From positions 1 to 50,061 of the IMG/VR virus record IMGVR_UViG_3300017963_003892: a stretch of 50,061 nt of DNA; one strand, given 5' to 3'. Both the position numbers and the translations under genes were made by a program. The notes below the pieces were generated by a model. The model did not search any database, was not told where the DNA came from, and worked only from the letters and a program-made list of their open reading frames with translations. How positions within the stretch are numbered: position 1 is the first letter of the stretch; each line of letters opens with the position of its first letter. This DNA comes from a virus. This document shows positions 8,907-50,061 of this stretch, piece by piece.

Positions 8907-9126
8907 AAAATGCCTAATACTATCTATAATCGGTGCGCCATTTGTTATTATAGCATTAGCGCTATTTGGTTTATTTATTGGCTATTTAATCATTCTGGTC
9001 GGTCAATATAGTGGAACGCTCCTCGGAATTCTTATTGGCATATTTATATTGTTTTCTTTAATTGTTATCGCATCAAACCTATACGAGCATTGTGTAAAGT
9101 ATCATAATGAGAAGAAGAAGAAATAA
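8899..9126 (+). CDS. Small protein with two membrane segments
   Basis: 75 residues. Two hydrophobic stretches (about 8-30 and 38-60) are separated by a short glycine-rich turn, with a Lys-rich C-terminus (NEKKKK) likely cytoplasmic. It overlaps both the Rad50-like N-half (8 bases) and the nuclease gene (20 bases), so it is translated with them. No family recognised. It could tether something to the membrane or simply be a passenger. Confidence 0.6.
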   Translation: MNKKCLILSIIGAPFVIIALALFGLFIGYLIILVGQYSGTLLGILIGIFILFSLIVIASNLYEHCVKYHNEKKKK

Positions 9127-11959: not shown

Positions 11960-11965
11960 ACCAAA

Positions 11966-12952: not shown

Positions 12953-12968
12953 ATAAGGAGATTAAGAA

Positions 12969-14324
12969 ATGCCAAAACTTGCAATAAAAGGTGGTCTTAA
13001 AGTTAGAAATAACCCTTTCCCGAATATGTCAACAATAGGCCAAAGTGAGTTGAATGCAGCGAGAAGGGTTATATTGACAGGAAATTTATCAGGTTTCAGA
13101 GGCAATTCAGGCCCAGGGTTTCAAGGTGGTCCCGAAGTAAGAGCACTTGAAAAGGAATGGGAAAAGAAATTTGGAGTTAAACATGCTATCGCCGTCAACT
13201 CCTGTACATCGGGGTTGCATATTGCTTGCATAGCCATTGATTTAAAACCAGGTGATGAAGTAATTGTGACTCCATGGTCGATGTCATGTAGTGCGACAGC
13301 GCCTATGATATGTGGGGCTATTCCAATCTTCGCTGACATTGAAGAGGATTATTATTGCCTTGATCCTCAATCGATAAGGGATAGAATAAGTGCAAGAACC
13401 AAAGCAATTATAGTAGTTGACTTATTTGGGCAGCCACATGATTATTCAGAAATACGAAAAATAGCCGACGAATATAGTCTATCTATAATTGAGGATGCTG
13501 CACAAGCCATCGGATCATACTACGGTAAAAGAAGTACAGGAACGCTTGGAGATATCGGCGTTTATTCCTTCACTCAAGGGAAGCATATTACCTGCGGTGA
13601 AGGTGGTATGATCGTAACAAATGATGATAAATTAGCGATGTCTTGTATGTTGCTAAGAAATCATGCCGAGGCGGTTGAAAATGATTTGATTGGTTCAAAA
13701 CCAAATTATAAAAAATATACTCTCCCTACATTTGATCACAATCTATTTGGATTCAACATGAGAATGACAGAGATACAGGCCGCCATACTGAGAGAGCAAC
13801 TCAAGTATTTAGATGGCGTTGTAGAAAAGCATCAGAAATCAGAACAATTCATAAGTGATAATCTAAGCCATCTAGATTATATTATCAAGTTTCCTAAAGT
13901 CAGACCTTACTCAACACATTCTTATTATGTTCAAGCTTTAAAATGGAGAACTGAAAATAAACATACTGAAGGAATACACCGCGATCAATATATTGAAGCA
14001 GTCAGGGCGGAGTTATCGCATGAAGAAGGTAGAGCTATTGAAGGCGTCCCGATCAGCTACGGATACATAAAACCTCTTTACTTATTTCCTATATTCCAAA
14101 ACTACCAAGATAAGTTAGACATCTATAAAAATGAGTATGAAAAAATCAGAAGGAGGCGTATAAAGGAGAATTATACACAAGGCAGTTGCCCTGTAGCTGA
14201 AAGATTATGGAAGAATGAAATAATTATAAACAGGCTGGTTGGAATGAATCTAATGGTTAGTGATCTTAAGGATGTCGTTAATGCATTCATTAAGGTTTGG
14301 GAGAATAGGGATGAATTAAGGTAA
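12969..14324 (+). CDS. DegT/DnrJ/EryC1/StrS sugar aminotransferase (PLP)
   Basis: PLP-dependent transfer of an amino group to a keto-sugar, PseC/LegC-type if the pathway reading is right. VNSCTSGLHIAC (phosphate-binding turn), GDEVIVTPWSM, IEDAAQAIG (Asp that pairs with the pyridine nitrogen) and FTQGKHITCGEGG (Schiff-base lysine) are all present. 451 residues is longer than PseC/LegC (about 390). The extra length is mainly an insertion before the C-terminal domain (around KWRTENKHTEGIHR). Good AAGGAG ribosome-binding site. Confidence 0.85.
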   Translation: MPKLAIKGGLKVRNNPFPNMSTIGQSELNAARRVILTGNLSGFRGNSGPGFQGGPEVRALEKEWEKKFGVKHAIAVNSCTSGLHIACIAIDLKPGDEVIVTPWSMSCSATAPMICGAIPIFADIEEDYYCLDPQSIRDRISARTKAIIVVDLFGQPHDYSEIRKIADEYSLSIIEDAAQAIGSYYGKRSTGTLGDIGVYSFTQGKHITCGEGGMIVTNDDKLAMSCMLLRNHAEAVENDLIGSKPNYKKYTLPTFDHNLFGFNMRMTEIQAAILREQLKYLDGVVEKHQKSEQFISDNLSHLDYIIKFPKVRPYSTHSYYVQALKWRTENKHTEGIHRDQYIEAVRAELSHEEGRAIEGVPISYGYIKPLYLFPIFQNYQDKLDIYKNEYEKIRRRRIKENYTQGSCPVAERLWKNEIIINRLVGMNLMVSDLKDVVNAFIKVWENRDELR

Positions 14325-14329
14325 GGAAT

Positions 14330-14482
14330 ATGAAAACAAAAAATATAGATAAAATCATTCTTGTAGTTATCGGGTTTAATATAGCCGTTAATATACATCA
14401 AGGAAATTGGCAGGCGGCGCTTGGATGGTTTATCGCCTCTCTTACTATTATTAGATTGCTTTTCTTTTATAAAGAGAAATAA
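14330..14482 (+). CDS. Small membrane-associated ORF
   Basis: 50 residues with AAGGAAT just before the ATG and a stop 22 bases before the NeuB-like gene. Two hydrophobic stretches (9-20 and 29-46) end in FFYKEK. Not recognised. It may be a genuine small membrane protein in the sugar operon. Confidence 0.4.
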   Translation: MKTKNIDKIILVVIGFNIAVNIHQGNWQAALGWFIASLTIIRLLFFYKEK

Positions 14483-14504
14483 AAAATTAATAAGGATCAG
14501 TAAA

Positions 14505-15365
14505 ATGATACCATTTATAGCAGATATTGGAAGCAACCATAATCAAAGTCTCACAAGGGCTAAAAATCTTATTTTAGCTGCAAAAGAGAGTGGTTGTTGG
14601 GGAGTTAAGTTTCAGCTTTTTAAAGCCGAACAGCTATGGAGAGATAAGACAGTAGCAGGAAGGATGAAGCATTGGGAATTGCCAGAAGAGTTCATTCCTG
14701 AGCTTTCAAGTTTTTGTAAAGCGCTTGATATAGCCTTCGGCTGCACACCTTTCTACTTAAAAGCTGTCGATATACTCAAAGATCATGTTGACTTTTTAAA
14801 GGTTGGTTCATACGAATTACTCTGGCTTGATTTAATCAGGAAGTGTGCAAAAACTGATAAGAAGCTTATCCTATCGACTGGCATGGGATCATTTGTTGAG
14901 ATACTTAATGCAATGTCAGCCGCCATTGTGCATTGTAAATCAGGATGTAATGATGATGATAACGTCTTAGGTTCTATATCAGTCCTGCATTGTAATTCGA
15001 CCTATCCTGCCAACCTTGAAGATTGCAATATGGCACAGATAGAAGTGCTTAGAAATCAATTTCGGAGATCAGTTGGATGGAGTGATCATACCACTGAGCC
15101 AGGGGTAATTTATTCTGCCATTTCATATGGTGCCTCAATAATTGAATTTCATTTGGATTTAGAAGATAAGCAAGGGGTCGAATCTAGAAGCGGCCATTGC
15201 TGGAAACCAAGTAAAATTGAATGTGTTATAAATAATATAAGCAACTGGTTGAAGACTGAATATTTCAGTAAAACCAGTTTAACACAAAAAATAGAGGAGC
15301 TAAGAAAGTCAAGAACTGACCCAACTGATGGAATGAGGCCATTGAAGAATGTCAAATCTACATAA
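14505..15365 (+). CDS. NeuB/PseI/LegI-like nonulosonic acid synthase
   Basis: Condenses a hexose with phosphoenolpyruvate to give a nine-carbon acid. IADIGSNHNQ, WGVKFQLFKAEQLW, FGCTPFYLKAVDIL, LKVGSYEL, LSTGMGSF, LHCNSTYPA and GWSDHTTEPG follow the NeuB TIM-barrel order. The ATG at 14505 starts exactly at the conserved N-terminus with AAGGATC upstream. At 286 residues it is shorter than NeuB (about 350) and appears to lack the C-terminal antifreeze-like SAF domain, which closes the neighbouring active site in the dimer. Activity is therefore uncertain. Confidence 0.8.
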   Translation: MIPFIADIGSNHNQSLTRAKNLILAAKESGCWGVKFQLFKAEQLWRDKTVAGRMKHWELPEEFIPELSSFCKALDIAFGCTPFYLKAVDILKDHVDFLKVGSYELLWLDLIRKCAKTDKKLILSTGMGSFVEILNAMSAAIVHCKSGCNDDDNVLGSISVLHCNSTYPANLEDCNMAQIEVLRNQFRRSVGWSDHTTEPGVIYSAISYGASIIEFHLDLEDKQGVESRSGHCWKPSKIECVINNISNWLKTEYFSKTSLTQKIEELRKSRTDPTDGMRPLKNVKST

Positions 15366-16332
15366 TGCCGAAATATTAATAACAGGCGGGACAGGTAGCC
15401 TTGGGCTAACCCTTGTAAAAACCCTTGTAAAATATCATTCAGAAATAAAAGGGATACGAGTCTTTTCAAGAGACGAACTGAAGCAATGGCTGATGAAGCA
15501 GGAGATCAACGTATGGTGTATCAAAAATAAGCTCTATGTGCCGATCTCTTATTTGGTGGGTGATGTAAGAGATATCAAAAGGCTTAAGATTGCGATGAGA
15601 GGGGTCACCCATGTCATCCATGCTGCTGCCATGAAGCAAGTCCCTGCCTGTGAAGAAAACCCTCTTGAAGCGATTAAGACAAATATAGGCGGTGCAGAGA
15701 ACATATTAGAAGCCGCTCTTTCATGTGACTCAATCGAGAAGGTTTTAGGCATAAGTACTGATAAGGCAATATACCCTATAAATCTCTACGGGGTTACGAA
15801 AGCCGCGATGGAAAAGTTATTCATCCAAGGCAACGTTTACAGTAAAGGACATGAGAGAAAACCAAGATTCAGTTGCTGCCGATATGGGAACGTTATAGGA
15901 AGCAGAGGAAGTGTGATTCCTTTATTTAAAAGTCAATATGATAGAAATCAAGAGATAACCGTTACCGATTTGAAAATGACAAGGTTTTGGATTACCCGGC
16001 CAGCCGCTGCTCGCTTTGTAATAAATAGATTGATGTATATGGAGGGTGGTGAGATATTCGTCCCTAAAATGCCAAGTTGTAGGGTTGTCGATCTTGCCAG
16101 AATGCTTATCCCTGATGTCCCTATAAAATATGTAGGGATAAGGAAAGGAGAGAAGATTCATGAATGGCTGATAACAACTGAGGAGAGCAGCGATTTATTA
16201 GAGTTAGGTAAAAGCTATGTAATCTCTTCAAGATATCAAAACAAGCATAAGAAGTTCGCTTATAACAGCCTTAGTAATGAACGGATTTTGAAAAAAGATG
16301 AATTCCATAAAATGTTAATAGAAGAAGTATAG
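15349..16332 (+). CDS. PseB/CapD-like UDP-sugar 4,6-dehydratase (SDR)
   Basis: First step of pseudaminic- or legionaminic-type pathways: UDP-GlcNAc dehydration. ILITGGTGSLG is the NAD(P) loop. HAAAMKQVPACEENPLEA is near-diagnostic of the PseB/FlaA1 family. STDKA and YGVTK (catalytic Tyr-x3-Lys) complete the active site. 327 residues is the expected length. It overlaps the NeuB-like gene by 17 bases, so the two are coupled. Confidence 0.85.
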   Translation: MSNLHNAEILITGGTGSLGLTLVKTLVKYHSEIKGIRVFSRDELKQWLMKQEINVWCIKNKLYVPISYLVGDVRDIKRLKIAMRGVTHVIHAAAMKQVPACEENPLEAIKTNIGGAENILEAALSCDSIEKVLGISTDKAIYPINLYGVTKAAMEKLFIQGNVYSKGHERKPRFSCCRYGNVIGSRGSVIPLFKSQYDRNQEITVTDLKMTRFWITRPAAARFVINRLMYMEGGEIFVPKMPSCRVVDLARMLIPDVPIKYVGIRKGEKIHEWLITTEESSDLLELGKSYVISSRYQNKHKKFAYNSLSNERILKKDEFHKMLIEEV

Positions 16333-18724: not shown

Positions 18725-18911
18725 ATCATCAAACCAAAATCAAATATTAAACGAGATAGAAGCCATCCGTTCCTCGAATAATTCTAACTGGATGAGGATT
18801 ATAAGAATCGCTCTCAAGCATGATAAAGAAGAAACTATAAAACTTCTTAAGAACATAGTTGAAATGGACGGAAGAATAAAGTCAGAAATGGAGAAACTAA
18901 TTAATGAATAG
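18717..18911 (+). CDS. Hypothetical small helical protein
   Basis: 64 residues overlapping both neighbours by eight bases. Charged and helical (ILNEIEAIRSSNNSNW, DKEETIKLLKNIVEM). Coupled to the Maf-like gene. No family recognised. Confidence 0.5.
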   Translation: MNKSSNQNQILNEIEAIRSSNNSNWMRIIRIALKHDKEETIKLLKNIVEMDGRIKSEMEKLINE

Positions 18912-21816
18912 GAAAAGGCTTAGTGTAAATCTAAAATCAATTATGGATATAAACCCATCCTTGTATAGCTGGATAGATAAGCAGGAAGAGGTTGATTGGG
19001 TTAGAGAAATCAAAAGTGATGATGGCCTCCCAAATCTTCTTATTTCAATTGGAAACAAGACAATCGCTGCATATAAAATGAGGGGTGCGAAGATAGAGGC
19101 TTTTCGTGCGGCGAAGAAAATGAAACTTTATAAGGAGAATGTCAGCATATTAATAGGTTTCGGCCTTGGGTATATGGCAAGGGCGATGCTTGATAAAATG
19201 GAGAAAGGGCATCATGTCATAGTCATTGAACCAGTCGGTCATGTGCTGAGACTTGGGCTATCTAATTTTGACTTCTCAAAAGAGATAAGAAATTTTGAAT
19301 TAATCATCGTCGAACCAAACCCAAAAGAAATAGCAGCCGCCTTTGGTATACTTGATAATAGTTACATCGTTAATGATTGGTTGGTAACAATCAATAAGTA
19401 TACCAAGCTGAGGCCAGATGAATATGGCGAATCAATGAAGTTAGTTCTCGATATCCTGAATCAGATCATGTGTTCCATTGGTACGATAGCTGGAGGGGCA
19501 GGAGCGAAGATAGCTGATAATGATATTGCTTGTCTTCCTTATGTTATCCGTCATAGAGGAGTAGCTGAACTGAAAGATATATTCAAGGATAAACCAGCAA
19601 TACTTGTCAGCACCGGGCCAAGCCTTGCTAAAAATATTCATCAATTAATCGATATCAGCAAAGAAAATAAAGCCGTAATAATTGCAGTTGGACAAGCCCT
19701 CAGAATTCTACTCGCCTACGATATTAAACCTGACTTCATCTGCACGGTTGATTTTGGTGAGGTCAACATGGGGCATTTTACAGGTCTTATGAATTCAGAT
19801 GTCCCACTCGTTACAATCAATAGAGCCTATGCTCCTTTACTGAAATCATGGCAAGGGCCAAAGTTCATCGTCTCTACTCCGGTGCCAGGGTTTGAGAAAA
19901 CCGCCGCTGGCATACTAACTAATAAAGGCAGTCTTGAGGCAGGTGGTAGTGTTGCACATCTCTGCTTTACATTTGCACAATCACTTGGTTGTGATCCAAT
20001 AACGTTAATTGGTCAGGATTTGGCTCTATCAAATACATCTCATATTCCCTTGGCTGATGCCTCCGGCAAAATTCAAATATCGGAGAACGGACAGATAGGT
20101 TGGAAGGTAAGCGATCATCGCTGCCATCTTCACAATGAAAAAGATGAAGTTTATGGTATGGGGCCAGTCCATCAAGTCCCAGGTTACTATGGTAAGCCTG
20201 TGATAACAAACCTGGGGCTCGCTTCATTTATAACGAGCTTTGAAGCGATGGCAAGCAAGTGCGAGGCAAAAGTAATCAATGCAACCGAGGGCGGAGCAGA
20301 TATCCGCAATACTGAAAAGATGATGCTCAAAGAAGTCATAAATCAATACTGCAAAGAAAAGATCGACAAAACAGAATTAGAAAAGTTGAAAACTCTTGCT
20401 GATGATGGTGATGATCTTATTGAAAAAGTCATCCCCTTACTTGAAAAGGATATTGATAATCTCAATGAGGTGATAAGTCAAGGTAGAAAAGGGCTGGCAA
20501 GCGCAAGAGGATTAGCGACACTTATGAGTCGTAATAATTATAAAGCTCTTCTTAACAAAAAAAATAAGGTATTCCTAAACAAACTATTAAAAGAAAGTAA
20601 GAGTGAGTCAGAAGTCGATAGAATAAATATGAATATAATATTCTTTGAGAAATTAGTTAATCAGTTAAGAAAATCAAAATTAAAGAATATAGTCCTTCTA
20701 ACTCAGAAAAATTTCGTGCATTCAGAAAATACGAGGATAGCAGCGACAAAGAATCCTCTTGTCAACGTCGCCATATATGGAGCGAGTAGAAGAATATGGC
20801 AAAGGAAGCTTAAGGTTAATGAAAAGTTCGAGCACTTTTTAACCAATAGAAAAGATGCAATGACAAGGCTTGAAAGGAATAAATTAATCTTAAATGCCGC
20901 CGTCAGTGCTGCAAAAGAACTAAAGCCTACATATAAGAAAACCCTAAAGCTGCTTAAGAAATATAATAAGAAAAAAGATGATAGTTTGCTGGTTGATAGA
21001 ACACCCGAACTAATGGACCTCAGTGATGCAGATAGTTATTTTGATGCTGATAACTGGGCACATCCATTGGTTGACGCGAAGAGATGTATTGATAAAATGC
21101 TGTTACTATCCAATGCCAAGCCATCAATATGTAACAAACCATTTGATGAAGTGAAGGCAATCTATAAAAAAGCTCTCACTATGAGAGAAGAAGCGATAGA
21201 GAAAGCAAAAAAAGAAGAGTATGATAATTGGGAAGAAAGAAAGAAAATTCTTGAATATAATCGCCTGATAAAAGAAAGTAGAGAAGCTGGTAAGAATGAT
21301 CAAGACTTTAGCAAAGCAGTTGAGATCCTTGAGGAGGCGAAAGAATTATTTCCAGATAATCCTGAAGCTAAGTGGGGCTTAGCCACTGCCCTACATCATT
21401 CGGGTCGATTTGATGAATCATTATCTATGTATCGAGAACTGATAAAGGAATCGCCTGATAATAACAGATACAAATTTGAGATGGGCCAGGTGCTACTTAA
21501 GACGGGGCAAACAAAGGAGGGATTAGATACATTGAAAGAGGCGATGGAATCAACCAGCGAATTCGATGGTGCCCTGGCAAATATTGGACAGATATATGAA
21601 CACGCTGGAATGAATAAAGATGCCCTTAGAGCTTATAATCTTTACCTGAAAAAGTTCCCAGCGGACTATGAAGTCTTGAATATGAAAGCAGTATGCCTTT
21701 CGAAGTTGAAGAGATATGGGCAGGCCATTAAAGTATTAAAAGCCTGTCTGAAAATAAAGCCGGATTTTAAGCAGGCAAAAGAAAACTTGCAAGTATTAAA
21801 GCGGCGTGGAATATAG
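18904..21816 (+). CDS. Maf/DUF115 glycosyltransferase-like protein with C-terminal TPRs
   Basis: 970 residues. Maf proteins (DUF115, MptE-like fold) transfer nonulosonic acids onto serine or threonine of flagellin. The DUF115 core is at about 220-450: PAILVSTGPSLAKNI, AVIIAVGQALRILLAYDIK, then PDFICTVDF, SLEAGGSVAHLCFTFAQSLG and LIGQDLAL. Residues 50-215 form an N-terminal Rossmann-like part (VSILIGFGLGYMARAM). A helical linker spans about 450-780, and TPR-type helices (PEAKWGLATALHHSGRFDES and relatives) fill about 800-970. TPRs usually bind protein, perhaps the acceptor. It follows the sugar cluster on the same strand. Confidence 0.75.
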   Translation: MNRKRLSVNLKSIMDINPSLYSWIDKQEEVDWVREIKSDDGLPNLLISIGNKTIAAYKMRGAKIEAFRAAKKMKLYKENVSILIGFGLGYMARAMLDKMEKGHHVIVIEPVGHVLRLGLSNFDFSKEIRNFELIIVEPNPKEIAAAFGILDNSYIVNDWLVTINKYTKLRPDEYGESMKLVLDILNQIMCSIGTIAGGAGAKIADNDIACLPYVIRHRGVAELKDIFKDKPAILVSTGPSLAKNIHQLIDISKENKAVIIAVGQALRILLAYDIKPDFICTVDFGEVNMGHFTGLMNSDVPLVTINRAYAPLLKSWQGPKFIVSTPVPGFEKTAAGILTNKGSLEAGGSVAHLCFTFAQSLGCDPITLIGQDLALSNTSHIPLADASGKIQISENGQIGWKVSDHRCHLHNEKDEVYGMGPVHQVPGYYGKPVITNLGLASFITSFEAMASKCEAKVINATEGGADIRNTEKMMLKEVINQYCKEKIDKTELEKLKTLADDGDDLIEKVIPLLEKDIDNLNEVISQGRKGLASARGLATLMSRNNYKALLNKKNKVFLNKLLKESKSESEVDRINMNIIFFEKLVNQLRKSKLKNIVLLTQKNFVHSENTRIAATKNPLVNVAIYGASRRIWQRKLKVNEKFEHFLTNRKDAMTRLERNKLILNAAVSAAKELKPTYKKTLKLLKKYNKKKDDSLLVDRTPELMDLSDADSYFDADNWAHPLVDAKRCIDKMLLLSNAKPSICNKPFDEVKAIYKKALTMREEAIEKAKKEEYDNWEERKKILEYNRLIKESREAGKNDQDFSKAVEILEEAKELFPDNPEAKWGLATALHHSGRFDESLSMYRELIKESPDNNRYKFEMGQVLLKTGQTKEGLDTLKEAMESTSEFDGALANIGQIYEHAGMNKDALRAYNLYLKKFPADYEVLNMKAVCLSKLKRYGQAIKVLKACLKIKPDFKQAKENLQVLKRRGI

Positions 21817-22212: not shown

Positions 22213-23168
22213 CTAACTACAAAAAAGGAATGTAACCAATGAAAAAAGAAATCAAAAGAATGGCAAGAAAAAGAACAGATGAGGTATTCCCTGAAAACGA
22301 TTCACTATTTGATACTCATAGGTTAATACCGAAAAGAAAAAATGGCACATACACGGATGAAAATACGGTAATCAAAATGCCGATTGATCATCAAATTGAG
22401 CATGGGACATTTAAGCAGAGAGAAAGTGAATTTGAAAAATTAAAAAGCCTATTTGATGATAGACAAAGTTTAATGAAGTCACGGATGAAAATAGATAATG
22501 CACTACTGGCATATAAAAGGGGAACAGATGTTCCTACGATTGAAATGATAAAATTTTATGAAGAGAAAATCAAAGAATTTGTGAAGTTTGAAAATAAGAG
22601 AAAAGGGGAAATCGAAAAGCAGCTAGAAAAAATAAACCATCCTGTCGCAAACGCCATGAGGGAGGTCGATCAGGTTGGTCCGGTTATCGCAGCAGGTTGT
22701 ATTATTTATTTAGACATTAAAAAAGCACGCCATCCGAGTAGTTTTTGGAAATATTGTGGATTGGATAAACCATTTTTTAGTAGGTATGAAAAAGGCAAGT
22801 CCAGCGGGGGCAATAAAAAATTAAGAACTGTTTTATATAATATGGCAAAATGTCAGGAAATGTGTTTAACGGCACCTTATAGACCAGTATACGATAATAA
22901 AAAACAAAAACTTGCGCAAAGTGAAAAAATCTGCGAGCAGACAAGAGGTACGGATGGGAAGATTAAAAAAAATGTAAAGTGGAAAGATGTAAAGCCATGT
23001 CATCGTCGAGGTGCAGCATTACGAGAAGTTATGAAACATTTCTTAGCGGATTTACACTATGTATGGTGCTGTATTGAGGGGATTGAGCCTTCGAAGCCAT
23101 ATGCCGAAGCACAACTTGGAAAACATAAAACTATTATGCCAGAAGAAAGAGGGTGGATTTTTTAATTA
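22209..23168 (+). mobile_element. 960-bp segment inserted in the array (IS110-like)
   Basis: The segment is flanked by direct repeats AAGCG (22204-22208 and 23169-23173). Deleting it and one copy of AAGCG restores the array in perfect phase and alternation. It carries one gene, with about 30 bases before and 3 bases after it. The ends (TTAACTAACTAC and TTTTTTAATTA) show no clear terminal inverted repeats. IS110 elements usually lack inverted repeats, but also usually make no target duplication. Confidence 0.6.
22239..23165 (+). CDS. Transposase_20 (IS110/IS116 C-domain) protein lacking the DEDD domain
   Basis: 308 residues with AAAGGAATG before the start. Residues about 140-190 form the helix-hairpin-helix part of Transposase_20 (QVGPVIAAGCIIYLDI, then FWKYCGLDKP). 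GKSSGGNKKLRTVLYNMAKC carries the serine expected to be the IS110 nucleophile. The C-terminus (RGAALREVMKHFLADLHYVW, PYAEAQLGKHK) matches IS110 relatives. The N-terminal RuvC-like DEDD domain is absent, replaced by a charged coiled coil (60-130). It is likely either a non-standard recombinase or a co-opted DNA-binding protein. Confidence 0.75.
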   Translation: MKKEIKRMARKRTDEVFPENDSLFDTHRLIPKRKNGTYTDENTVIKMPIDHQIEHGTFKQRESEFEKLKSLFDDRQSLMKSRMKIDNALLAYKRGTDVPTIEMIKFYEEKIKEFVKFENKRKGEIEKQLEKINHPVANAMREVDQVGPVIAAGCIIYLDIKKARHPSSFWKYCGLDKPFFSRYEKGKSSGGNKKLRTVLYNMAKCQEMCLTAPYRPVYDNKKQKLAQSEKICEQTRGTDGKIKKNVKWKDVKPCHRRGAALREVMKHFLADLHYVWCCIEGIEPSKPYAEAQLGKHKTIMPEERGWIF

Positions 23169-40702: not shown

Positions 40703-42151
40703 TTAGACTGAGATTATACCAAGTTTAATTGCCTGAAAGTTAACGACATCGCCGCCAACTCTCTTCCTGGTATAAAACTCAACAAAGGGCTTCGCGGTAT
40801 AAGGATCTCTTTGAACCGTGACACCCATACGATCAACGATAACATAAGCCTCTCGCCAATCAGCAAGAGCTACTGAAAGAGCACTTGCAGCGACGGTCGG
40901 CATTGTCGTTGACATTCTCACGGGTAGACCCAGAATGGTACTTCCTGCGGGGTCATCGGCCAATCCTGGTTTCCAAATATACTGCCCGTTGCCGTCTTTC
41001 AGATACATGGCATCGGCAACGGTCAATCTATTCATCAGCCAGGTTCCTCTGGTCAGAAAGTCTTCAATCAAGCTATACTTGACCGCGATGAAACCATCGG
41101 CAGTTAAAGCGGTTGCATTTTGCATCGCCACCTGCTCAACCTGACCATAATTGACACCATCGCCATAAGACTCAAAACCTCTCGGTTGATTGACGCCATC
41201 GCCGGTTACAAAAGCAGCCCCTTCCCCTCGCAAGAATCTCGTAGAAACTTTATCAGCCAACCAATTTTCGACGTTGATCCCACTATCTTCCAGTAGGGTC
41301 ATCGTTGCCCTCGGTTTAGCATAAAGGGTGTGAACTGGAATTCTCTTTTTAAACCATTGGGGAGTAGCGGTTTCACTGGTTGTCTCAGTTTCACCTTCCC
41401 AACCGTAACCTGCTTGATCCCAGTCAACCATCCATTCCAATGCTCCGGTTGTGATTGTTTCAAGAGAAGCAAGTTGACGGATTGGATCGGACTCAAACAA
41501 CCTGGTGATAATACGGTTGCTGGTTGCAGGGGTGACGGTATAGCCACCATCTGGATCGATGCCAACTGAAAGGGCTTTCATGTCTTCGGGACTGAGAAAT
41601 TTCTCATCCTTGCGGAAGAAGGTTTCAAAAGCCTCCTTATATGCAGAATAAGCATCAACATCAACCTCCATAGATTTCGCCCGGTTCCACGTGGCACCTT
41701 TGCCGCTTTTATCACGGACTGCCATCGCATGGATCATAAAAGACTTGGCCTCATTATAGAAGGTAGCGGAAGCTTTTTCTTCATCTCTCTGCTCAGCACC
41801 TTTCCTTCTCTTAATGGTGGTCTCGAAGGCATCCAGTCGCTCATTGAATTTCTCAACATCAGACTTCATCTGAGCTTCAGCTTGATCAAAAGCAGCCTGT
41901 CTTGTGGTGATATCCTCTGTAAGCTTCGTCAGCTTTTCTTTTGTCAGAGCATCGGCTTCGGTAATATCCTTCCCTTTTACCTGCAAACCGTCAATGATCT
42001 TCTTCAGCTCTTCATGACCTTTGCGCAATTCGTCATAGCTATTCTTATGATTCTCACCGAGCTTTTTAATCTCATCTTGAACAGCCTTTACGACTTCTGG
42101 CTCCGGTGTTTGCTGACTGCGTCCATCAGATTCTTTGACTTCGTAAGCCAT
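40703..42151 (-). CDS. Major capsid protein, HK97 fold, with N-terminal scaffold domain
   Basis: 482 residues. Residues 1-125 are a long coiled coil (VVKAVQDEIKKLGENHKNSY and following), the delta/scaffold domain removed by the protease. The HK97-type core starts near 190: SVGIDPDGGYTVTPATSNRI, then FESDPIRQLASLETI, LYAKPRATMTLLEDSGINVE, then FVTGDGVNQPRGF and a C-terminal P-loop region (DRMGVTVQRDPYT, FYTRKRVGGDVVNFQAIKLG). A protease gene lies directly upstream, as in HK97. Confidence 0.95.
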   Translation of the reverse strand: MAYEVKESDGRSQQTPEPEVVKAVQDEIKKLGENHKNSYDELRKGHEELKKIIDGLQVKGKDITEADALTKEKLTKLTEDITTRQAAFDQAEAQMKSDVEKFNERLDAFETTIKRRKGAEQRDEEKASATFYNEAKSFMIHAMAVRDKSGKGATWNRAKSMEVDVDAYSAYKEAFETFFRKDEKFLSPEDMKALSVGIDPDGGYTVTPATSNRIITRLFESDPIRQLASLETITTGALEWMVDWDQAGYGWEGETETTSETATPQWFKKRIPVHTLYAKPRATMTLLEDSGINVENWLADKVSTRFLRGEGAAFVTGDGVNQPRGFESYGDGVNYGQVEQVAMQNATALTADGFIAVKYSLIEDFLTRGTWLMNRLTVADAMYLKDGNGQYIWKPGLADDPAGSTILGLPVRMSTTMPTVAASALSVALADWREAYVIVDRMGVTVQRDPYTAKPFVEFYTRKRVGGDVVNFQAIKLGIISV

Positions 42152-42174: not shown

Positions 42175-42963
42175 TTAACTATTGACTTGTTTCAAAGTTT
42201 TTAGAATCTCAAGCATCCCACTTGAATCTTCCTCATCTAAGTGGCTACTTTGATAGCCTGCATTTGCCTGATTTAGAATACGCAGCACCTCTGATAAGCC
42301 AGTAGCACCGCTCATCCTTCCCTCATCTGCCTCCCGCAGATAGGGTTTGTAGAGTTTAACCAGAAATTGAGCGAAGCTTCGTGAACAACCAGCATCCCGC
42401 AGGCTTCTTTCAAGCTCTCTCTCGGTTCCAGCTTCTTCAAATAGTTTCGGGTTTAATGTTTTCACTGTTTCAATTCTTGCATTTATATTAGCTGGGAATG
42501 TTACGATACTTAATTCCCATAAATCAATTTCTTTTAATAGTCGCGTACCTTTTTCTTTGCCGGGCTCGTGATCAACTACATCATAACCAATCGATAGACC
42601 AAAGCCAAATGACTTTGATTCAAACCCAAGCTTCATCGTCTCATAGACATCCTTCCCAAGTGATGTCCGCATAGCCAGTTTACCGACAGATCGCAGCCCT
42701 CTTGAATCTTCAGCCAGCTCAGTCCATACGCCTGGGATCTGATCTGACTTATGTTGCCATAGCATTGGGATTCCGTTGCCATTCCTGCCACCCTTTGCAA
42801 GCGATTTGACATAAGCGCCCTTTGCGACAATATCACCATGAGCATCAGGAAGGCCACCAAATGTCGAACCATATCCTCGAAATATACCATCTTCCTCGAT
42901 TTCCTTTACTTCGAATGGAAATGCGAGAAAGCTTTTATTCTGCCGGCTATCTTTTTTATTCAT
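42175..42963 (-). CDS. HK97-type prohead protease
   Basis: 262 residues from ATG 42963 (GGAG eight bases upstream); an ATG at 43002 with AAGGA is a longer alternative. DGIFRGYGSTFGGLPDAHGD, MLWQHKSDQIPGVW (catalytic His), KSFGFGLSIGYDV (catalytic Ser) and LWELSIVTFPANINA match the peptidase family of HK97 gp4. It matures the capsid. A 49-bp stretch around the catalytic His is copied in the small gene at 7164. Confidence 0.9.
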   Translation of the reverse strand: MNKKDSRQNKSFLAFPFEVKEIEEDGIFRGYGSTFGGLPDAHGDIVAKGAYVKSLAKGGRNGNGIPMLWQHKSDQIPGVWTELAEDSRGLRSVGKLAMRTSLGKDVYETMKLGFESKSFGFGLSIGYDVVDHEPGKEKGTRLLKEIDLWELSIVTFPANINARIETVKTLNPKLFEEAGTERELERSLRDAGCSRSFAQFLVKLYKPYLREADEGRMSGATGLSEVLRILNQANAGYQSSHLDEEDSSGMLEILKTLKQVNS

Positions 42964-43053: not shown

Positions 43054-43185
43054 TTATTCTCTATCTCCCTCAGGATCTTCTGAGTCATCATCTTCTAAAG
43101 TAAATTGGATTATTTTCCCATCCTTATCAACAAATTCAATGGAATCTATCCAATTATTGAACTCATCCTCATTATCTAATATCAT
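43054..43185 (-). CDS. Small acidic protein, unknown
   Basis: 43 residues, ATGA overlap with the MuF-topoisomerase stop. Strongly acidic (MILDNEDEFNNWIDSI, LEDDDSEDPEGDRE). The composition resembles DNA mimics or small chaperones, but no family is recognised. Coupling to the topoisomerase fusion is of interest: an acidic partner might hold that enzyme inactive before ejection. Confidence 0.5.
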   Translation of the reverse strand: MILDNEDEFNNWIDSIEFVDKDGKIIQFTLEDDDSEDPEGDRE

Positions 43186-44990
43186 TTTAAACCGCCTATA
43201 AAATCCCACACCATTGGATCAATGTAAGAATTACGTGCCATTGTTGGTGTATTATGAAGAAATCCACTTACTCTTTCAGAGACCTCTTTAATTATTCTTT
43301 TCTTCATTCTTTTATCTATTTTCTGTCCAGCATACTTTTTTAATTCATCATAAGCAATCCTTGTGCCATGATACGTTCTAAAATCTTTAATCGTATATTT
43401 CTTACCATCTGCTAATTCTTTCAAATATTTATTCAGCTTACTTGCCGTTATATCAGGAAATAATTTTTCCCCAGGTTTAGTATTTATTTTTCTTTCTTTG
43501 AGCCATTTTGATAATATATTATCTTTCAATCTATAACTCACAGGGATACCTTCTTTCGCAATAAAATTTAATTTAATTAAGTCGCCTTTTATTTCAATAT
43601 GCTCATGTCGTAGAGTAGTTAGTCCATATGCTTTTTTCTTAGCTCTAAAATCTCTAGATGATCCTGCTCGAATAGCTGTCTTATTTTCAAGTTCTAATAA
43701 ATAAGCCCTACCATCACCAGCTTTCATACCCTCTTTAATTTTATCTCTAATACCAACAAGATCATTTTTAAAAGATTTAATACGATTAAATTTTTTCCTT
43801 GCAGCCTCTTCAATATGTTCCGCTGAATATCTATATTGCCACCTGCCTGCTTTATCCAAACCTATGGCTTGTATCTTAGATTTTAAATCAGTTGATACTA
43901 CTACATTTCGCCATGCGGGAGGCAAGCGCATTTTATTTAATCTTTCAAACTCTTCAGTAGATACTTCCTTCCCTTTTAAAAACCATTTTCCTTCATCATT
44001 CCTTACATAATCTTCACATGATTGTGGAACCTTCTTAAACTCAATTATAAATACTCCCTTCCATTCTACTAAACAATTATCCATCTTCCCAATTATATTC
44101 ATCGGTGCATTAGAAGAAGTAATAGGCGGCTCATAAGGCTTAACAGGCTGAGTACTTCTTACGGTATGATAAAGCACAACACAACGGCAATTTACAATAT
44201 TCCCAGGGCTACCAGAGGGATCACCGGGATAATCCAAAGCCTCTCCAGTCCTTGTAAACTTAGCATCCATCGCAACCCGCTCACCATCTGCCGCCCTGTG
44301 CGCTATTCTTGTTCTATCATCAAGAGCTGACATCCACTCCTTTTCCATCTCTATTCTTGTGCTTCTAACGGCTGCTTGAACTGATTTAACACCAGCGGTG
44401 TGAGTCTCTGTCCTTGCTATCCTAAGAGCTCTAACAGGATTCGTAACCCTACTATTACTCCTAATCTCTTTCGCTATCTCTTTATGGGATATCCCCTCTC
44501 CCATCCCTTTTTGAATAATACCGATAATATTCTTTTTTGTTGTCTTATGAAGACGGCGGATCTTTGAATGCTCTGCTTGATACACCATCCACCGATCCAT
44601 CTCTCCCCAGAATTCATCCTTTGGGGTTTTAGTGGCGGAAGGCGAAACATCAGCTTCATTAAACCATAAACTTCTCCCTTTTTCTTCTGCAAGTCTATTA
44701 AATGTTGACTTCAGGGATATATCCACCGCATCATATACCTTTTTAAGGAATACTTTCGCCACCCGTCGATAGTGATTTTTAAGAGTCTCTACCATCCTTC
44801 TATACTCACTATCAACCGCGAGATCGATACCAGTTAGTAAACCCTGCTCAACAAACTTTGCTGCATTAAGATACTGACGACCAAGGATAGGCCTAAGCTC
44901 TCTTGCATAGGTATTCTCAAGTGGCTGCATTATTCGAGTCATTTCAAACAGGAAAGCCCTGCGAGCTCTTCTATTTGTAATATTAATCAT
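43182..44990 (-). CDS. MuF head morphogenesis protein fused to DNA topoisomerase IB
   Basis: 602 residues in one uninterrupted frame. Residues 1-280 are the MuF/SPP1-gp7 minor head protein: ARTETHTAGVKSVQ, WMSALDDRTRIAHRAADGE, YPGDPSGSPGNIVNCRC. Residues about 310-602 are a topoisomerase IB: LPPAWRNVVVS, QAIGLDKAGRWQYRY, IRAGSS (Arg441), SYGLTTL-like YGLTTLRHEHIEI, FIAKEG (Lys479), IKDFRTYHGT (Arg538), NTPTMARNSYIDP (Asn580, Tyr589). The catalytic set Arg-Lys-Arg-Asn-Tyr and its Asn-to-Tyr spacing follow the bacterial enzymes. Type IB enzymes relax supercoils through a 3'-phosphotyrosine. The portal gene overlaps upstream by four bases. Confidence 0.85.
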   Translation of the reverse strand: MINITNRRARRAFLFEMTRIMQPLENTYARELRPILGRQYLNAAKFVEQGLLTGIDLAVDSEYRRMVETLKNHYRRVAKVFLKKVYDAVDISLKSTFNRLAEEKGRSLWFNEADVSPSATKTPKDEFWGEMDRWMVYQAEHSKIRRLHKTTKKNIIGIIQKGMGEGISHKEIAKEIRSNSRVTNPVRALRIARTETHTAGVKSVQAAVRSTRIEMEKEWMSALDDRTRIAHRAADGERVAMDAKFTRTGEALDYPGDPSGSPGNIVNCRCVVLYHTVRSTQPVKPYEPPITSSNAPMNIIGKMDNCLVEWKGVFIIEFKKVPQSCEDYVRNDEGKWFLKGKEVSTEEFERLNKMRLPPAWRNVVVSTDLKSKIQAIGLDKAGRWQYRYSAEHIEEAARKKFNRIKSFKNDLVGIRDKIKEGMKAGDGRAYLLELENKTAIRAGSSRDFRAKKKAYGLTTLRHEHIEIKGDLIKLNFIAKEGIPVSYRLKDNILSKWLKERKINTKPGEKLFPDITASKLNKYLKELADGKKYTIKDFRTYHGTRIAYDELKKYAGQKIDKRMKKRIIKEVSERVSGFLHNTPTMARNSYIDPMVWDFIGGLK

Positions 44991-46660
44991 TCTTCACCAG
45001 CCGCCTCAAATGTGCCGCCTCTACTATTACAATGGGATCTTGCTGACGCAGCCGTCCATGAGCCCTTTTTATATCTTAAAGCCTGTACCGACGCCTTACC
45101 ATCTTTTATTCCGAATATGTAATCTACACATTTATTATCACTTCTTCTATAACAGTTAACTCTATTAAAACTATCAAATTGATCAGGGGGTTTTAAACGA
45201 CAAGCATGCTCATTCGGATATGGTTTGCCTTCATCTGGCATAGCATCTGGTGGTAATTCTTTAACATCAAACGATTCATCCTTTTTATTACCACCATATG
45301 TAAAGCCAAGCATATCATCTATTTCATCATCAGAATATCCCTGCTCAATCAGATTCATTCTAATATTGTCTTCTTCTTCAACTTCCTCTTCTTCACTTTC
45401 TTCATCCTCAGCAACTCCAAGAGGGATCATCGTGGCTGGAACCAGGATGACATCACCAGGCTTATCTGTTGGCTCATACTGCTCTAATCCAACCATCTCG
45501 CGCTTTTCATTTATAGTCAGAAAGTCACTCCCTTGTGCTCTCTCCCACAGCTTATCCCTCTTATATGAAAGTGCTGGGACGTTATCGAGGATATAATCTG
45601 CAAATACATTCTCTTCTTTTTGGAAAAGCCAATTATTCAGCTCACCTTTAAAATAATTCAAATAAAAGAATATAGTAGTTTCCCAAAAATCAGCCCTCGC
45701 TTCGCGATAGTTAGCATAGGTACTATCACCAGGGATACCAAGAAGCTGAGGTGGTACTCCATAACCAAGCGCGATCCTTCTTGCCAATTCCCTACCACCC
45801 TCTGTGAAATCGAGATCTTTTGGTGCCCAGGCGTACGGTTCAGCCTTTGTCCCGGATTCACCAGTTATAATAATATTCTTCCCAGCATTCTTCGCACCCG
45901 TATGCTGTTCACGAAGGTGACGTTCGAGGGCATCAAATCCCTCCTCCCCGAGTGCACCAACAAGGGTAAACACCATCCCAGGACGGCCCTCATTATCAAG
46001 TATTGATTTGTTCCATTCAGTAGCTTGATTTGATGAATCTATCTCTCTGGCGGTGGGCTCTGTCACCGATGCTCCCCACCAATCATCAGTCGGGTGGAAT
46101 GATTTTAATTGCAATACATCACATTGACCTGTAATGTCATCAACCTCCCAATTAGTTTCATTCGAGCCAACCCGATAGGTAAAGCCGGATAGCTTTCCTT
46201 CAGATGTATTTATCTTCATCCTATCAGGTCTTAATACATAGAGTTCCTTTGGGATACCTTTATTTTTTCCTGACGATGGGGATACTCTCTCAATAAATGA
46301 ATTACCACAAATCAACAAATATGAGGTCAACGATAGCATCAGAAATTCAAAACTATCACTTGGATTTGCTCTATGGAATAGATCATTTACAGGATGTTCT
46401 AAGAAATATTCTCTGTTATCATCATCGATATTCTTGAATACTTTCCAAGGGACGGAACAGACTGATTTAGCTATCTTATCTATACACTTGAAAGCGATGA
46501 CATTCTTGAGATAGGATTCCTTTGCAAAGTTTTCATAATCGTTAGGTGTCCATACTGCCCCACCCATACCAACAGAAACCATCCCGGCTGTTCTGCTTTC
46601 TTTCCTCTCGCCTCTTTTAAACCAATTAAAAAATCTCATTTTTCTATGACCCCTCATCAT
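44987..46660 (-). CDS. Portal protein
   Basis: 557 residues. HK97/SPP1-type portal: VWTPNDYENFAKESYLKNVI, SVCSVPWKVFKN, HPVNDLFHRANPSDSFEFL, GNSFIERV, LRRIALGYGVPPQLLGI-like region (ARRIALGYGVPPQLLGIPGD) and TINEKREMVGLEQYEP. An acidic stretch follows (EDEESEEEEVEEEDN). The last 80 residues form an extra module (NEHACRLKPPDQFDSFNRVN to WTAASARSHCNSRGGTFEAA) that occurs in several phage head proteins; its role is unclear. Confidence 0.9.
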   Translation of the reverse strand: MMRGHRKMRFFNWFKRGERKESRTAGMVSVGMGGAVWTPNDYENFAKESYLKNVIAFKCIDKIAKSVCSVPWKVFKNIDDDNREYFLEHPVNDLFHRANPSDSFEFLMLSLTSYLLICGNSFIERVSPSSGKNKGIPKELYVLRPDRMKINTSEGKLSGFTYRVGSNETNWEVDDITGQCDVLQLKSFHPTDDWWGASVTEPTAREIDSSNQATEWNKSILDNEGRPGMVFTLVGALGEEGFDALERHLREQHTGAKNAGKNIIITGESGTKAEPYAWAPKDLDFTEGGRELARRIALGYGVPPQLLGIPGDSTYANYREARADFWETTIFFYLNYFKGELNNWLFQKEENVFADYILDNVPALSYKRDKLWERAQGSDFLTINEKREMVGLEQYEPTDKPGDVILVPATMIPLGVAEDEESEEEEVEEEDNIRMNLIEQGYSDDEIDDMLGFTYGGNKKDESFDVKELPPDAMPDEGKPYPNEHACRLKPPDQFDSFNRVNCYRRSDNKCVDYIFGIKDGKASVQALRYKKGSWTAASARSHCNSRGGTFEAAGEE

Positions 46661-46944: not shown

Positions 46945-49062
46945 CTATTTTAACGGTGAACTAAACTCTATATATCTTAAAGTAGTGACTTCAGCACTAC
47001 TGCTGCTTGAACTACTACTACTTGATTCCGATGATGAGCTTGAACTTGACGACTCAGACGATGAGCTGCTTGATTCAGACGAACTTGATGAACTGCTACT
47101 TGATGATTCAGAAGACGATGACGATGATGATGAACTTGAACTTGATGACTCAGACGAACTTGATGAACTACTGCTGCTTGATTCAGACGATGAACTTGAC
47201 GAACTTGAGGATTCAGATGAGCTTGAACTGCTGCTAGAAGATTCTGAAGACGACGATGATGATTCAGACGAGCTTGAACTACTGCTTGATGATTCTGACG
47301 ACGAGCTTGACGACCGAGAAGAGGAGCTTGACGACCGAGAAGAGGAGCTTGATGATTCAGACGATGATGATGAATGAGAAGAACTAAGACTTGATGAACT
47401 CGATGATTCAGATGAAGATGAAGACGATTCAGATGAAGATGAAGACGATTCAGATGAAGATGAGGATGATTCTGATGACGATGACGAACTACTGCTGCTT
47501 GACATTGATGAAGATGAACTTGAACTACTACTACTTGATTCTGATGATGATGATGATCCAGACGATTCAGATGAACTTGATGATTCAGAAGATGATGAAC
47601 TCGAACTTGATGATTCAGAAGATGATGAACTCGAACTTGATGATTCAGAAGAGGATGAAGAACTTGATGAACTTGATGATTCAGAAGATGATGAACTCGA
47701 ACTTGATGATTCAGAGGAACTTGAAGAACTTGAGCTTGATGATTCTGATGAACTACTACTCGATGATTCTGAAGAACTTGAGCTGCTACTCGATGATTCA
47801 GATGACGATGATGAACTGCTTGATTCTGACGATGATGATAAGCTACTACTTGACGATTTAGATGAAGAAGATGAACTTGATGATGAGGATGAGCTTGTAC
47901 TTGATGAACTCGATGATTCAGAGGATGAACTCGATGATTCTGATGATGAGCTTGATGATTCCGAAGATGAGCTACTGCTACTACTCGATCCAGATGATTC
48001 CGATGAACTACTGCTTGAAGATTGTGACGATGAACTTGATGACAGAGACGAAGATGACGATGAAACAGAGCTCGATGACTCAGATGAGCTTGAGGAATCA
48101 GAAGAACTTGAAACACCAGATGATGAGCTTGACTCAGACGAAGAAGATGAACTACTGCTACTTGACTCAGAAGATGACGATGAACTGGATGACTCTGATG
48201 AACTCGATGAGCTACTACTACTTGATTCTGATGATGACGATGAACTACTACTTGATGATTCAGACGATGAGCTTGAAGATGAACTACTTGACTCTGATGA
48301 TGAGCTTGAAGATGAACTGCTTGATTCTGATGAGGATGATGACATCTTTGATGATGCCGAAGACGAACTTGAACTACTGCTACTTGACTGAGAAGAGGAG
48401 CTTGAAGAAAGAGAAGATGAACTTGATGACTCTGATGAACTCGATGAGCTACTACTACTTGATTCCGATGAACTTGACGATTCCGATGAAGATGATGAGC
48501 TACTGCTTGATGATTCAGATGATGATGATGAACTCGAACTGGATGATTCAGATGAGGAAGACAAACTGCTACTGGACGATTCAGATGAAGAGCTTGAAGA
48601 CGAACTTGAAGATTCAGACGAACTTGATGAACTACTGCTGCTTGATTCAGACGAACTTGAAGAACTACTGCTTGATGATTCCGAAGATGAAGATGAGCTC
48701 GAACTTGATGATTCCGATGAACTTGATGAACTACTACTGGACGATTCTGATGATGATGATGATTCAGAAGATGAGCTACTGTTGGATGATTCGGATGAGC
48801 TTGAGCTGCTACTGCTACTTGATTCTGAAGATGACGAAGAACTGCTTGATTCAGACGAACTTGATGATTCTGACAGCGATGATGAGCTTGAAGATTCAGA
48901 CGATGAGCTTGATGATTCTGACGATGAACTTGATGACTGAGAAGACGAGCTTGACGACCGAGATGAAGAGCTTGAAGCTCTTTCCAATAATAGAGCATCA
49001 CTATTTGTCTCTAATAGTAAAGAGCCGCTTTCATCCTCTAATAAAAGTTCATCAAGTGCCAT
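46945..49062 (-). CDS. Giant polyserine/glutamate repeat protein 1
   Basis: 705 residues. A short N-terminal module (MALDELLLEDESGSLLLETN, then SDALLLE), similar to N-termini of small phage structural proteins, is followed by about 650 residues of serine runs (usually 5-10) punctuated mostly by single Glu, rarely Gln, Arg, Leu, Gly, Lys, Met, His, Thr or Val. The C-terminus is AEVTTLRYIEFSSPLK. The serines use all six codons in mixed order. Such a chain would be extended and is an ideal O-glycosylation or phosphorylation substrate. It belongs to the structural block; role unknown. Confidence 0.8.
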   Translation of the reverse strand: MALDELLLEDESGSLLLETNSDALLLERASSSSSRSSSSSSQSSSSSSESSSSSSESSSSSSLSESSSSSESSSSSSSSESSSSSSSSSSESSNSSSSSESSSSSESSSSSSSSSSESSSSSSSSSSESSSSSSSSSSESSSSSSSSSSESSSSSSSSSSESSSSSLSSSSESSSSSSSSSSESSSSSSSSSSESSSSSESSSSSSSSSSESSSSSSLSSSSSSQSSSSSSSSSSASSKMSSSSSESSSSSSSSSSESSSSSSSSSSESSSSSSSSSSESSSSSSSSSSESSSSSSSSESSSSSSSSSSESSSSSGVSSSSDSSSSSESSSSVSSSSSSLSSSSSSQSSSSSSSESSGSSSSSSSSSESSSSSSESSSSSSESSSSSSTSSSSSSSSSSSSKSSSSSLSSSSESSSSSSSSESSSSSSSSSESSSSSSSESSSSSSSSSSESSSSSSSSSESSSSSSSSSSSESSSSSSSSSESSSSSSSSSESSSSSESSGSSSSSESSSSSSSSSSSMSSSSSSSSSSESSSSSSESSSSSSESSSSSSESSSSSSLSSSHSSSSSESSSSSSRSSSSSSRSSSSSSESSSSSSSSSESSSSSSESSSSSSSSSESSSSSSSSSESSSSSSSSSSESSSSSSSSSSSSSESSSSSSSSSSESSSSSSESSSSSSSSESSSSSSSSSSAEVTTLRYIEFSSPLK

Positions 49063-49065
49063 CTA

Positions 49066-50061
49066 TTAAAACTCCACAATATATTTAAAGGTAGAAGGAA
49101 ATTCAATTATCTCCCAATCATCAAAAACTGCTGTCAGACTGCTTGAGCTTGAACTTGCTGAGCTTGAACTGCTACTGCTTGATTCAGACGACTCAGATGA
49201 AGATGATGATGAACTACTTGATGATTCAGATGAAGAAGAAGAACTGCTGCTACTACTGGATTCAGAGGATGAACTTGAACTTGAACTTGATGACTCCGAC
49301 GATGAAGATGATGATGATGAACTACTGCTTGATGATTCAGATGATGAAGATGAAGACGAGCTGCTTGATTCTGACGAAGATGATGATGAACTACTTGATG
49401 ATTCAGATGAACTTGACGAGCTTGAACTACTCGATTCAGATGATGATGAAGATGAACTACTGCTTGATTCTGACGAAGATGATGATAAACTACTGCTTGA
49501 TTCAGAGGAAGATGAAGATGAACTACTGCTTGAACCGCTTGATTCAGATGAAGAACTCGAACTTGAACTGGATGACTCAGATGAAGATGATGAACTGGAT
49601 GATTCCGATGACGAACTAGATGATAAAACAGATGATCTAGATGAAGATGAACTACTGCTTGAACCGCTTGATTCGGATGAAGAACTCGAACTTGAACTGG
49701 ATGATTCAGATGAAGATGATGAACTGGATGATTCCGATGACGAACTAGATGATAAAACAGATGATCTAGATGATGATGAACTTGAACTTGAACCGCTTGA
49801 TTCGGATGAAGAACTCGAACTTGAACTGCTTGATTCAGATGAAGATGATGAACTTGAACTAGATGACTCTGATGAAGATGAAGATGAGCTACTACTCGAT
49901 GATTCTGATGAGCTTGATGAACTCGAACTGGATGATTCAGATGAAGATGATGAACTACTACTTGACGATTCAGATGAAGATGAAGATGAAGAGCTACTCG
50001 ACGATTCAGACGAAGATGATGAACTACTACTGCTGCTTGATTCAGAAGATGATGACGATTC
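49066..50061 (-). CDS. Giant polyserine/glutamate repeat protein 2 (5' end outside window)
   Basis: The minus frame is open from the window edge to TAA 49066-49068, at least 331 residues. Composition is as in protein 1, with occasional Gly, Arg, Val and Leu. The C-terminal module differs: LTAVFDDWEIIEFPSTFKYI then VEF. Its stop lies three bases before the start of protein 1, so the two form a tandem pair that probably arose by duplication. The start and N-terminal module lie beyond 50061. Confidence 0.75.
   Translation of the reverse strand, partial: ESSSSSESSSSSSSSSSSESSSSSSSSSSSESSSSSSSSSSESSSSSSSSSSESSSSSSSSSSSESSSSSSSSSSESSSSSSSSSSESSGSSSSSSSSRSSVLSSSSSSESSSSSSSSESSSSSSSSSSESSGSSSSSSSSRSSVLSSSSSSESSSSSSSSESSSSSSSSSSESSGSSSSSSSSSSESSSSLSSSSSESSSSSSSSSSESSSSSSSSSSESSSSSSSSSSESSSSSSSSSSESSSSSSSSSSSSSESSSSSSSSSSESSSSSSSSSSSESSSSSSSSSSESSESSSSSSSSASSSSSSLTAVFDDWEIIEFPSTFKYIVEF
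49514..49845 (-). repeat. 129-bp tandem repeat inside polyserine gene 2
   Basis: Units at 49514-49642 and 49643-49771 are nearly identical, and a partial third starts at 49772. Landmark GAACCGCTTGATTC recurs at 49532, 49661 and 49790. The unit is 43 codons, so repeat number can change without breaking the frame. Confidence 0.85.

Follow-up and report, generated by a model that had tools for sequence, protein, structure and literature searches.

The window analysed here is the whole stretch of 50,061 nucleotides (nt) of the virus record IMGVR_UViG_3300017963_003892 from IMG/VR. On its minus strand, it carries an open reading frame (ORF), muf-topIB, in which the MuF domain of a minor head protein is followed by a type IB topoisomerase (TopIB) within one protein, the enzyme having a complete set of catalytic residues; a small acidic ORF overlaps its end. 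The original prediction, made from the sequence alone, had described this joined ORF and the five catalytic positions of the enzyme, which was borne out by Pfam, by alignment with a solved structure (2f4q), and by conservation among relatives. The unit that it described was incomplete, as the overlapping acidic ORF (43054-43185), which belongs with the fusion gene, had been overlooked. The features of this unit are the following:

43182..44990, minus strand: muf-topIB fusion gene, 602 amino acids (aa), a single uninterrupted ORF (Pfam; related fusions)
44175..44516, minus strand: MuF domain of the minor head protein, aa 159-272 (Phage_Mu_F, E 7e-16)
44073..44105, minus strand: junction motif PMNIIGKMDNC, aa 296-306, family form PM..IG[RK]...C (alignment of relatives; DNA pattern search)
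43854..43973, minus strand: N-terminal (DNA clamp) domain of TopIB, aa 340-379 (Top1B_N_bact, E 4e-10)
43233..43811, minus strand: catalytic core of TopIB, aa 394-586 (Topoisom_I, E 3e-28; 2f4q and 2h7f by sequence and fold)
43668..43670, minus strand: codon of catalytic Arg441 (alignment with 2f4q and clade conservation, as for the next four codons)
43554..43556, minus strand: codon of catalytic Lys479
43377..43379, minus strand: codon of catalytic Arg538
43251..43253, minus strand: codon of active-site Asn580
43224..43226, minus strand: codon of the nucleophile Tyr589
43054..43185, minus strand: acidic partner ORF, 43 aa, net charge -14 (ATGA overlap with the TopIB stop codon; homologues beside TopIB)

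The TopIB half was recognized through two Pfam domains (PF01028 with PF21338), the core scoring 99 bits (cut-off 23.7) and the bacterial-type N-terminal domain 39.6 bits (cut-off 27). The nearest solved structure by sequence in the PDB is the TopIB of D. radiodurans (2f4q; aa 348-596, E 7e-30). Similarly, the best fold matches of an AlphaFold2 (AF2) model were 2f4q, the variola TopIB-DNA complex 2h7f (TM-score 0.68 over the target), and human Top1, with the catalytic residues sitting where they had been placed originally. Within the clade of relatives described below, Arg441, Lys479, and Arg538 were kept in 27 of 27 rows, Asn580 in 25 of 26 (the exception, L034, having a tyrosine), and Tyr589 in 26 of 26, the sequence of L033 ending before this residue at the contig end. 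This suggests that the TopIB of the window is catalytically active. The confidence of the AF2 model was low for aa 216-319, which may point to a flexible tether or simply to sparse alignment coverage of this region.

The MuF half was assigned with 59.3 bits to Phage_Mu_F (curated cut-off 29.6). In addition, the head morphogenesis family phrog_2468 matched aa 9-279 of the fusion protein (E 4e-48), a match that includes the N-terminal helices (aa 7-164). The gene follows directly on that of the portal protein, whose stop codon overlaps the start codon of the fusion, and precedes those of the protease and the capsid, as is found for MuF minor head proteins:

44987..46660, minus strand: portal protein, 557 aa, directly upstream of the fusion (Phage_portal, E 7e-61)
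42175..42963, minus strand: prohead protease (S78), downstream of the fusion (Peptidase_S78, E 4e-26)
40703..42151, minus strand: major capsid protein (Phage_capsid, E 6e-71)

No terminase was recognized beside the portal gene by the Pfam and PHROGs scans of the window. The S78 prohead protease could process the MuF-TopIB fusion protein.

Relatives were retrieved from IMG/VR, using the fusion protein and a TopIB alignment as queries, which yielded about 30 loci of the same clade (given as L numbers). The analysis set consisted of 27 distinct TopIB genes, namely that of the window and 26 others, including one found later; most of these 26 are fused to portal-vertex proteins. Together, the 27 genes form one phage-only group (support 100/99; 97 with more rows), distinct from both cellular TopIB and a second phage group. 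The two patterns used retrieved no clade members from 84,980 bacterial and archaeal genomes, but only cellular TopIB of near 30% identity.

The search for other MuF-TopIB fusions, proposed with the original prediction, was answered by many of them. A first architecture, MuF-TopIB, is that of the window and of L003, L011, L014, L015, L029, L035, L036, and L066; the MuF type of the window also occurs in the joined proteins of L007, L018, and L028. A second one is a portal-MuF-TopIB triple fusion of 1066 aa (L005), present in several contigs. Thirdly, a segment with an HExxH motif lies between MuF and TopIB (L007, L018, and L032). The 2224-aa chain of L013 consists of MuF, an HExxH segment, an ADP-ribosyltransferase (ART), and TopIB, and L026, the 5' end of which is cut, consists of ART domains followed by TopIB. 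Fourthly, TopIB is internal and followed by a further C-terminal region in L002, L028, and L034, the last being a Phage_min_cap2-TopIB protein. The ART domains of L013 and L026 were assigned by Pfam; the zincin-like HExxH segments (L007, L013, L018, L023, L031, L032, and L034) were read by eye, with a weak Pfam match (ATLF) in L023 only. Lastly, four clade members are unfused, with TopIB as a separate ORF. In L012, L019, and L024, this ORF lies beside the genes of the portal and the minor head protein, at 3 nt after the latter in L019 and L024; in L009, the contig starts just upstream of it. The tree requires 14 changes of the assigned architecture labels within the clade, and the common denominator of TopIB attachment appears to be the portal vertex.

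For the close pair L003 and L008, the ratio of nonsynonymous to synonymous substitution rates (dN/dS) was 0.06 in the N-terminal part, 0.09 in TopIB, and 0.09 in the acidic ORF, the last value coming from seven differences only. This indicates purifying selection across the join, as judged from this one pair. Relative to L003, L008 (L008:5476-7470) shows an 11-residue in-frame tandem duplication (LNRYLKKLADE) within the TopIB core. Intein-like inserts were seen in MuF right before a conserved NCRC in L033 (L033:1518-4217; weak LAGLIDADG match) and L043 (L043:840-3542; weak intein-splicing match).

The two halves are joined at the motif PMNIIGKMDNC, a version of which forms the C-terminus of the minor head protein in unfused loci (e.g. 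LMSSANKFKGC and PMRIVGRMLGC). A degenerate DNA pattern for PM..IGRF..C gave eight matches over all IMG/VR, seven of which are TopIB loci of the window clade; the eighth (L072) is a chance frame. A role of the PM..IG motif as a general linker preceding toxins, common to other MuF effectors, was not found in this search. The motif may be a docking or processing site.

A homologue of the acidic ORF (F..WL.SI.FVD..G...LP..L..D.S.DPEGDRE; typically about 45 aa) lies beside TopIB in all 26 loci whose contig reaches far enough. It usually overlaps or abuts the TopIB stop codon; in L002, L012, and L034, another ORF or a gap lies between the two. In the opposite direction, 2.9 million viral contigs were searched with nothing but alignments of the small protein. 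The 12 contigs obtained all have TopIB directly upstream and include a new locus (L066) missed by the TopIB search; the patterns were built from TopIB-linked copies, so that very divergent stand-alone acidic ORFs could escape this search. The acidic ORF had no match in 50,697 phage records and no family in PHROGs, where each family was matched by at most one of the 12 members scanned (best E 0.04). It is absent beside the nearest MuF genes that are devoid of TopIB (L075 and L076). Similarly, the MuF phages without TopIB P12026 and ctUhy936 display the order portal-MuF-protease-capsid and no acidic ORF, indicating that TopIB and the acidic ORF come and go together. A general gene of MuF or head operons was hence rejected as far as tested, the IMG/VR scans having led to TopIB loci only, and within the window clade the acidic ORF appears to be dedicated to TopIB. 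The AF2 model of the acidic protein of the window (mean pLDDT 83, pTM 0.38) combines a helix (6-15) with a short hairpin and an extended acidic tail. A small cysteine-containing ORF (C..C......P...IP..I) adjoins the acidic ORF, before it in L002 (L002:8167-8364) and after it in L013 (L013:7005-7205).

The second phage group, searched with L042, is a sister clade consisting largely of portal_3-TopIB fusions (L038, L039, L042, L080, L086, L087, L095, and others), with long low-complexity linkers in L039, L042, and L087. Its unfused TopIB genes adjoin MuF or portal genes (L079, L083, L085, and L098). Attachment of TopIB to portal-vertex proteins, in many architectures, extends over two phage clades. 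Most TopIB genes of the sister clade have a short acidic ORF behind them, which belongs to a second conserved type (HFG..DWRK..D.DPDDE...DVIxMLGFDP; L078-L095), whereas none of eight cellular TopIB genes has a short acidic ORF there. Compared with the main type, significance was reached by L037 only (E 2e-4 over 121 frames), L043 being borderline (0.03) and the rest not significant. These ORFs are therefore treated as an analogous second family, homology with the main type being supported for L037 only. In L042, an acidic tail is present in cis, its homology to the acidic ORF not being established.

These arrangements may be explained by a topoisomerase that is located inside the virion, held at the portal, restrained by its acidic partner during the assembly phase, and acting on the phage DNA at ejection or just after, a reading to which we assign a probability of about 0.5. 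The MuF half would bind beside the portal, whereby the TopIB half would be incorporated into the head through a flexible tether. The small acidic protein, made in step through the ATGA overlap, would bind the TopIB clamp and keep it off the DNA during head assembly. After packaging, TopIB would act on the phage's own DNA as this exits or just after its entry into the cell, relieving torsion ahead of any gyrase of phage or host, like poxviruses that carry TopIB in the virion. Incorporation into the head is the simplest reading, given that the proteins to which TopIB is attached are MuF, minor capsid proteins, and the portal itself. Indeed, MuF proteins belong to the structural components of the head in portal-terminase phages, and enzyme delivery has been proposed for MuF fusions (PMC5512222, PMC5576092). 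Delivery into the cell is favoured by the relatives that fuse TopIB with ART and protease-like segments, and chains with zincin-like and ART effector segments are thought to be injected (PMC5512222). Fusion to the portal rather favours action in place, or cleavage before release. Vaccinia TopIB, listed among the known virion enzymes (PMC1540416), provides a precedent for a packaged TopIB. From all this, we infer presence in the virion, release from the head, and timing at ejection.

Several points weigh against this reading. Portal-TopIB fusions cannot exit the head unless they are cleaved, which fits action in place equally well. Several relatives possess TopIB as a separate ORF, for which packaging is not required. 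The exact pairing of the window is carried by one phage only. Finally, the putative role of the acidic protein as a TopIB inhibitor is proposed from its charge, size, and gene order. Overall, the earlier interpretation in terms of packaging, toxin, and capture was supported in part. That the enzyme is packaged with the genome became more plausible, with relatives tethering TopIB to MuF, portal-MuF, Phage_min_cap2, or, in the sister clade, the portal. No evidence supported genome circularisation or the cutting of host DNA, and the frame of a C-terminal toxin of a temperate phage fitted poorly, as set out below.

A tentative alternative is that TopIB remains on the portal ring as a swivelase and is never delivered to the cell. 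It would relieve twist during packaging, when the motor rotates against crowded DNA, or during ejection, when the spool unwinds. Two clades would independently have tethered TopIB to the DNA channel of the head, controlling torsion in both processes, with the dedicated acidic peptide as an off-switch during assembly. The portal-TopIB and portal-MuF-TopIB fusions indeed anchor the enzyme to a component that stays behind in the capsid, the long low-complexity linkers of the sister clade (L039, L042, and L087) resemble tethers, and type IB topoisomerases need neither ATP nor metal. In contrast, chains that join TopIB with ART and zincin segments (L013, L026, L028, and L031) indicate delivery to the cell, and most phages package and eject their DNA without such an enzyme. 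If true, this swivelase would be a previously undescribed topological component of the packaging and ejection machine.

It is rather unlikely that TopIB is a phage-delivered C-terminal toxin of the MuF polymorphic class with the acidic ORF as its immunity protein. MuF proteins with a C-terminal toxin and a small ORF behind are a described class, such an ORF being reported for 89% of the MuF toxin genes (PMC5576092). A small ORF directly downstream is indeed found (43054-43185; in 26 of 26 loci), and ART and zincin segments are present in relatives. However, the described class has been reported from temperate phages, whereas the records scanned, namely the window and larger relatives, several of them fragments, gave no match above the cut-off to either integrase family (no tyrosine integrase, PF00589, in 15 records; no resolvase, PF00239, over cut-off in nine). 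The temperate toxin frame appears not to fit for this reason. Furthermore, the window carries a T4-like recombination and replication set, TopIB is internal instead of C-terminal in L002, L028, and L034, and an immunity gene would be of little benefit to linear-phase virulent phages. Membership in the MuF polymorphic toxins is not established.

Still less probable is an ordinary replication or transcription topoisomerase that is merely encoded, and sometimes translated, with head genes. Jumbo phages do have stand-alone TopIB outside head clusters (PMC7824862), and four clade members are unfused. Yet these unfused members still directly adjoin portal or minor-head genes, fusion of TopIB to portal-vertex proteins recurs in the two phage clades, and the late gene position is wrong for a replication enzyme. 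A join of two genes by frameshift or misassembly can be dismissed: although the exact window sequence was found in one contig only, the same kind of joined protein was seen across many independent contigs and samples, with the MuF type of the window in L007, L018, and L028, and dN/dS is low across the join in L003 and L008, which argues against both chance and an assembly error.

The original prediction had also proposed a recent capture of the enzyme on the basis of GC content. In the stretches sampled, the contrast was confirmed (28.3% versus 51.7%), but over the whole halves it is less extreme (31.9% for TopIB versus 42.7% for MuF). TopIB and the acidic ORF form the region of about 1 kb with the lowest GC content of the window (31-32%, versus 43% for MuF and 43% for the protease), which fits an exchange of a TopIB/acidic ORF cassette. 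However, most relatives show no GC step between the halves, and an approximately unbiased (AU) test did not reject that phages with the MuF type of the window share their TopIB by common descent (p 0.43). A recent transfer of TopIB between MuF types was not supported for this type, nor for type B (p 0.17), type D being borderline (p 0.045). A recent exchange at the window locus is possible; it would not be the origin of the fusion.

Compared with known systems, the bacterial and poxvirus TopIB (D. radiodurans 2f4q and 3m4a; variola 2h7f) share the clamp domain, core, Arg-Lys-Arg-Asn/His-Tyr site, and fold. Unlike these free-standing enzymes, the window clade is phage-only, tethered to head proteins, and accompanied by the acidic ORF. 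The stand-alone TopIB of the phages Motura, RHph_N46, PhiXhv-12, and BS162P1, some of them jumbo phages, are annotated as free proteins encoded outside the head operon; their identity is 24-33%, and they lie on long branches apart from the window clade. Vaccinia H6R TopIB is likewise carried in the virion (PMC1540416), but it belongs to a eukaryotic virus and is not fused to a portal or capsid protein, making this an analogy of working only. The MuF minor head proteins and polymorphic toxins (Jamet et al. 2017, PMC5576092) have the same N-terminal MuF, an enzymatic C-terminal part, a small ORF behind, and a place in the head operon. Here, by contrast, no integrase was found, the acidic ORF is specific for TopIB, and TopIB is also internal or a separate gene; the text of that paper does not mention a topoisomerase. 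Polyvalent proteins (Iyer et al. 2017, PMC5512222) are similar multi-domain chains that combine MuF or portal with effectors (zincin, ART) and are likely packaged and injected. Features of these proteins occur in L013 and L026 (ART and TopIB by Pfam) and, in appearance, in L007, L018, and L031 (HExxH and TopIB), whereas the window protein consists of MuF and one enzyme only. The main text of PMC5512222 does not name a TopIB domain, 'topoisomerase' occurring only once, in the reference list. No paper combining MuF, topoisomerase IB, and phage, or topoisomerase IB and portal protein, was found in the open-licence literature, which is weak evidence, an earlier mention elsewhere being possible; a match for MuF and topoisomerase concerns frameshift prediction, going by its title and abstract. 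As fusions of effectors to MuF and portal proteins were already known, what is new is the tethering of TopIB to these proteins together with a dedicated acidic ORF of about 45 aa.

With this, a DNA-topology enzyme joins the enzymes known to be attached to MuF and portal proteins. It touches on how phage DNA gains and loses twist in the head and on exit, and on whether a phage supplies a topology enzyme before gene expression. An intact portal-fixed swivelase, with a mutable tyrosine and a putative inhibitor of 43 residues, makes such questions on DNA twist testable. The acidic protein, if its proposed role is true, would be a small, natural, genetically encoded inhibitor of a type IB topoisomerase; few protein inhibitors exist for this class of enzymes.

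Elsewhere in the window, the T4-like set (959-10087) consists of a clamp-loader AAA protein, a gp32-like single-stranded DNA-binding protein, a RecA/UvsX-like protein, an SMC-type ATPase, and a metallophosphoesterase (gp46/47-like), which suggests recombination-dependent replication. Genes for sugar-nucleotide and glycan metabolism (11213-16332 and 18904-21816) encode a CMP-sugar cytidylyltransferase, a GFO/IDH oxidoreductase, a DegT aminotransferase, an epimerase, and then an MptE-like protein of 970 aa with tetratricopeptide repeats, perhaps a Maf-type glycosyltransferase. They were read as a phage-borne cluster for surface-glycan synthesis or flagellin glycosylation. A transposase-like ORF (22239-23165; phrog_4285) lies between this cluster and the tail genes. 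Neither a 705-aa nor a 408-aa ORF had a Pfam or PHROGs match. The former lies on the minus strand (46945-49088), opposite a tidy run of plus-strand ORFs; the latter are probably the genes, as the GC skew turns positive at about 47 kb.
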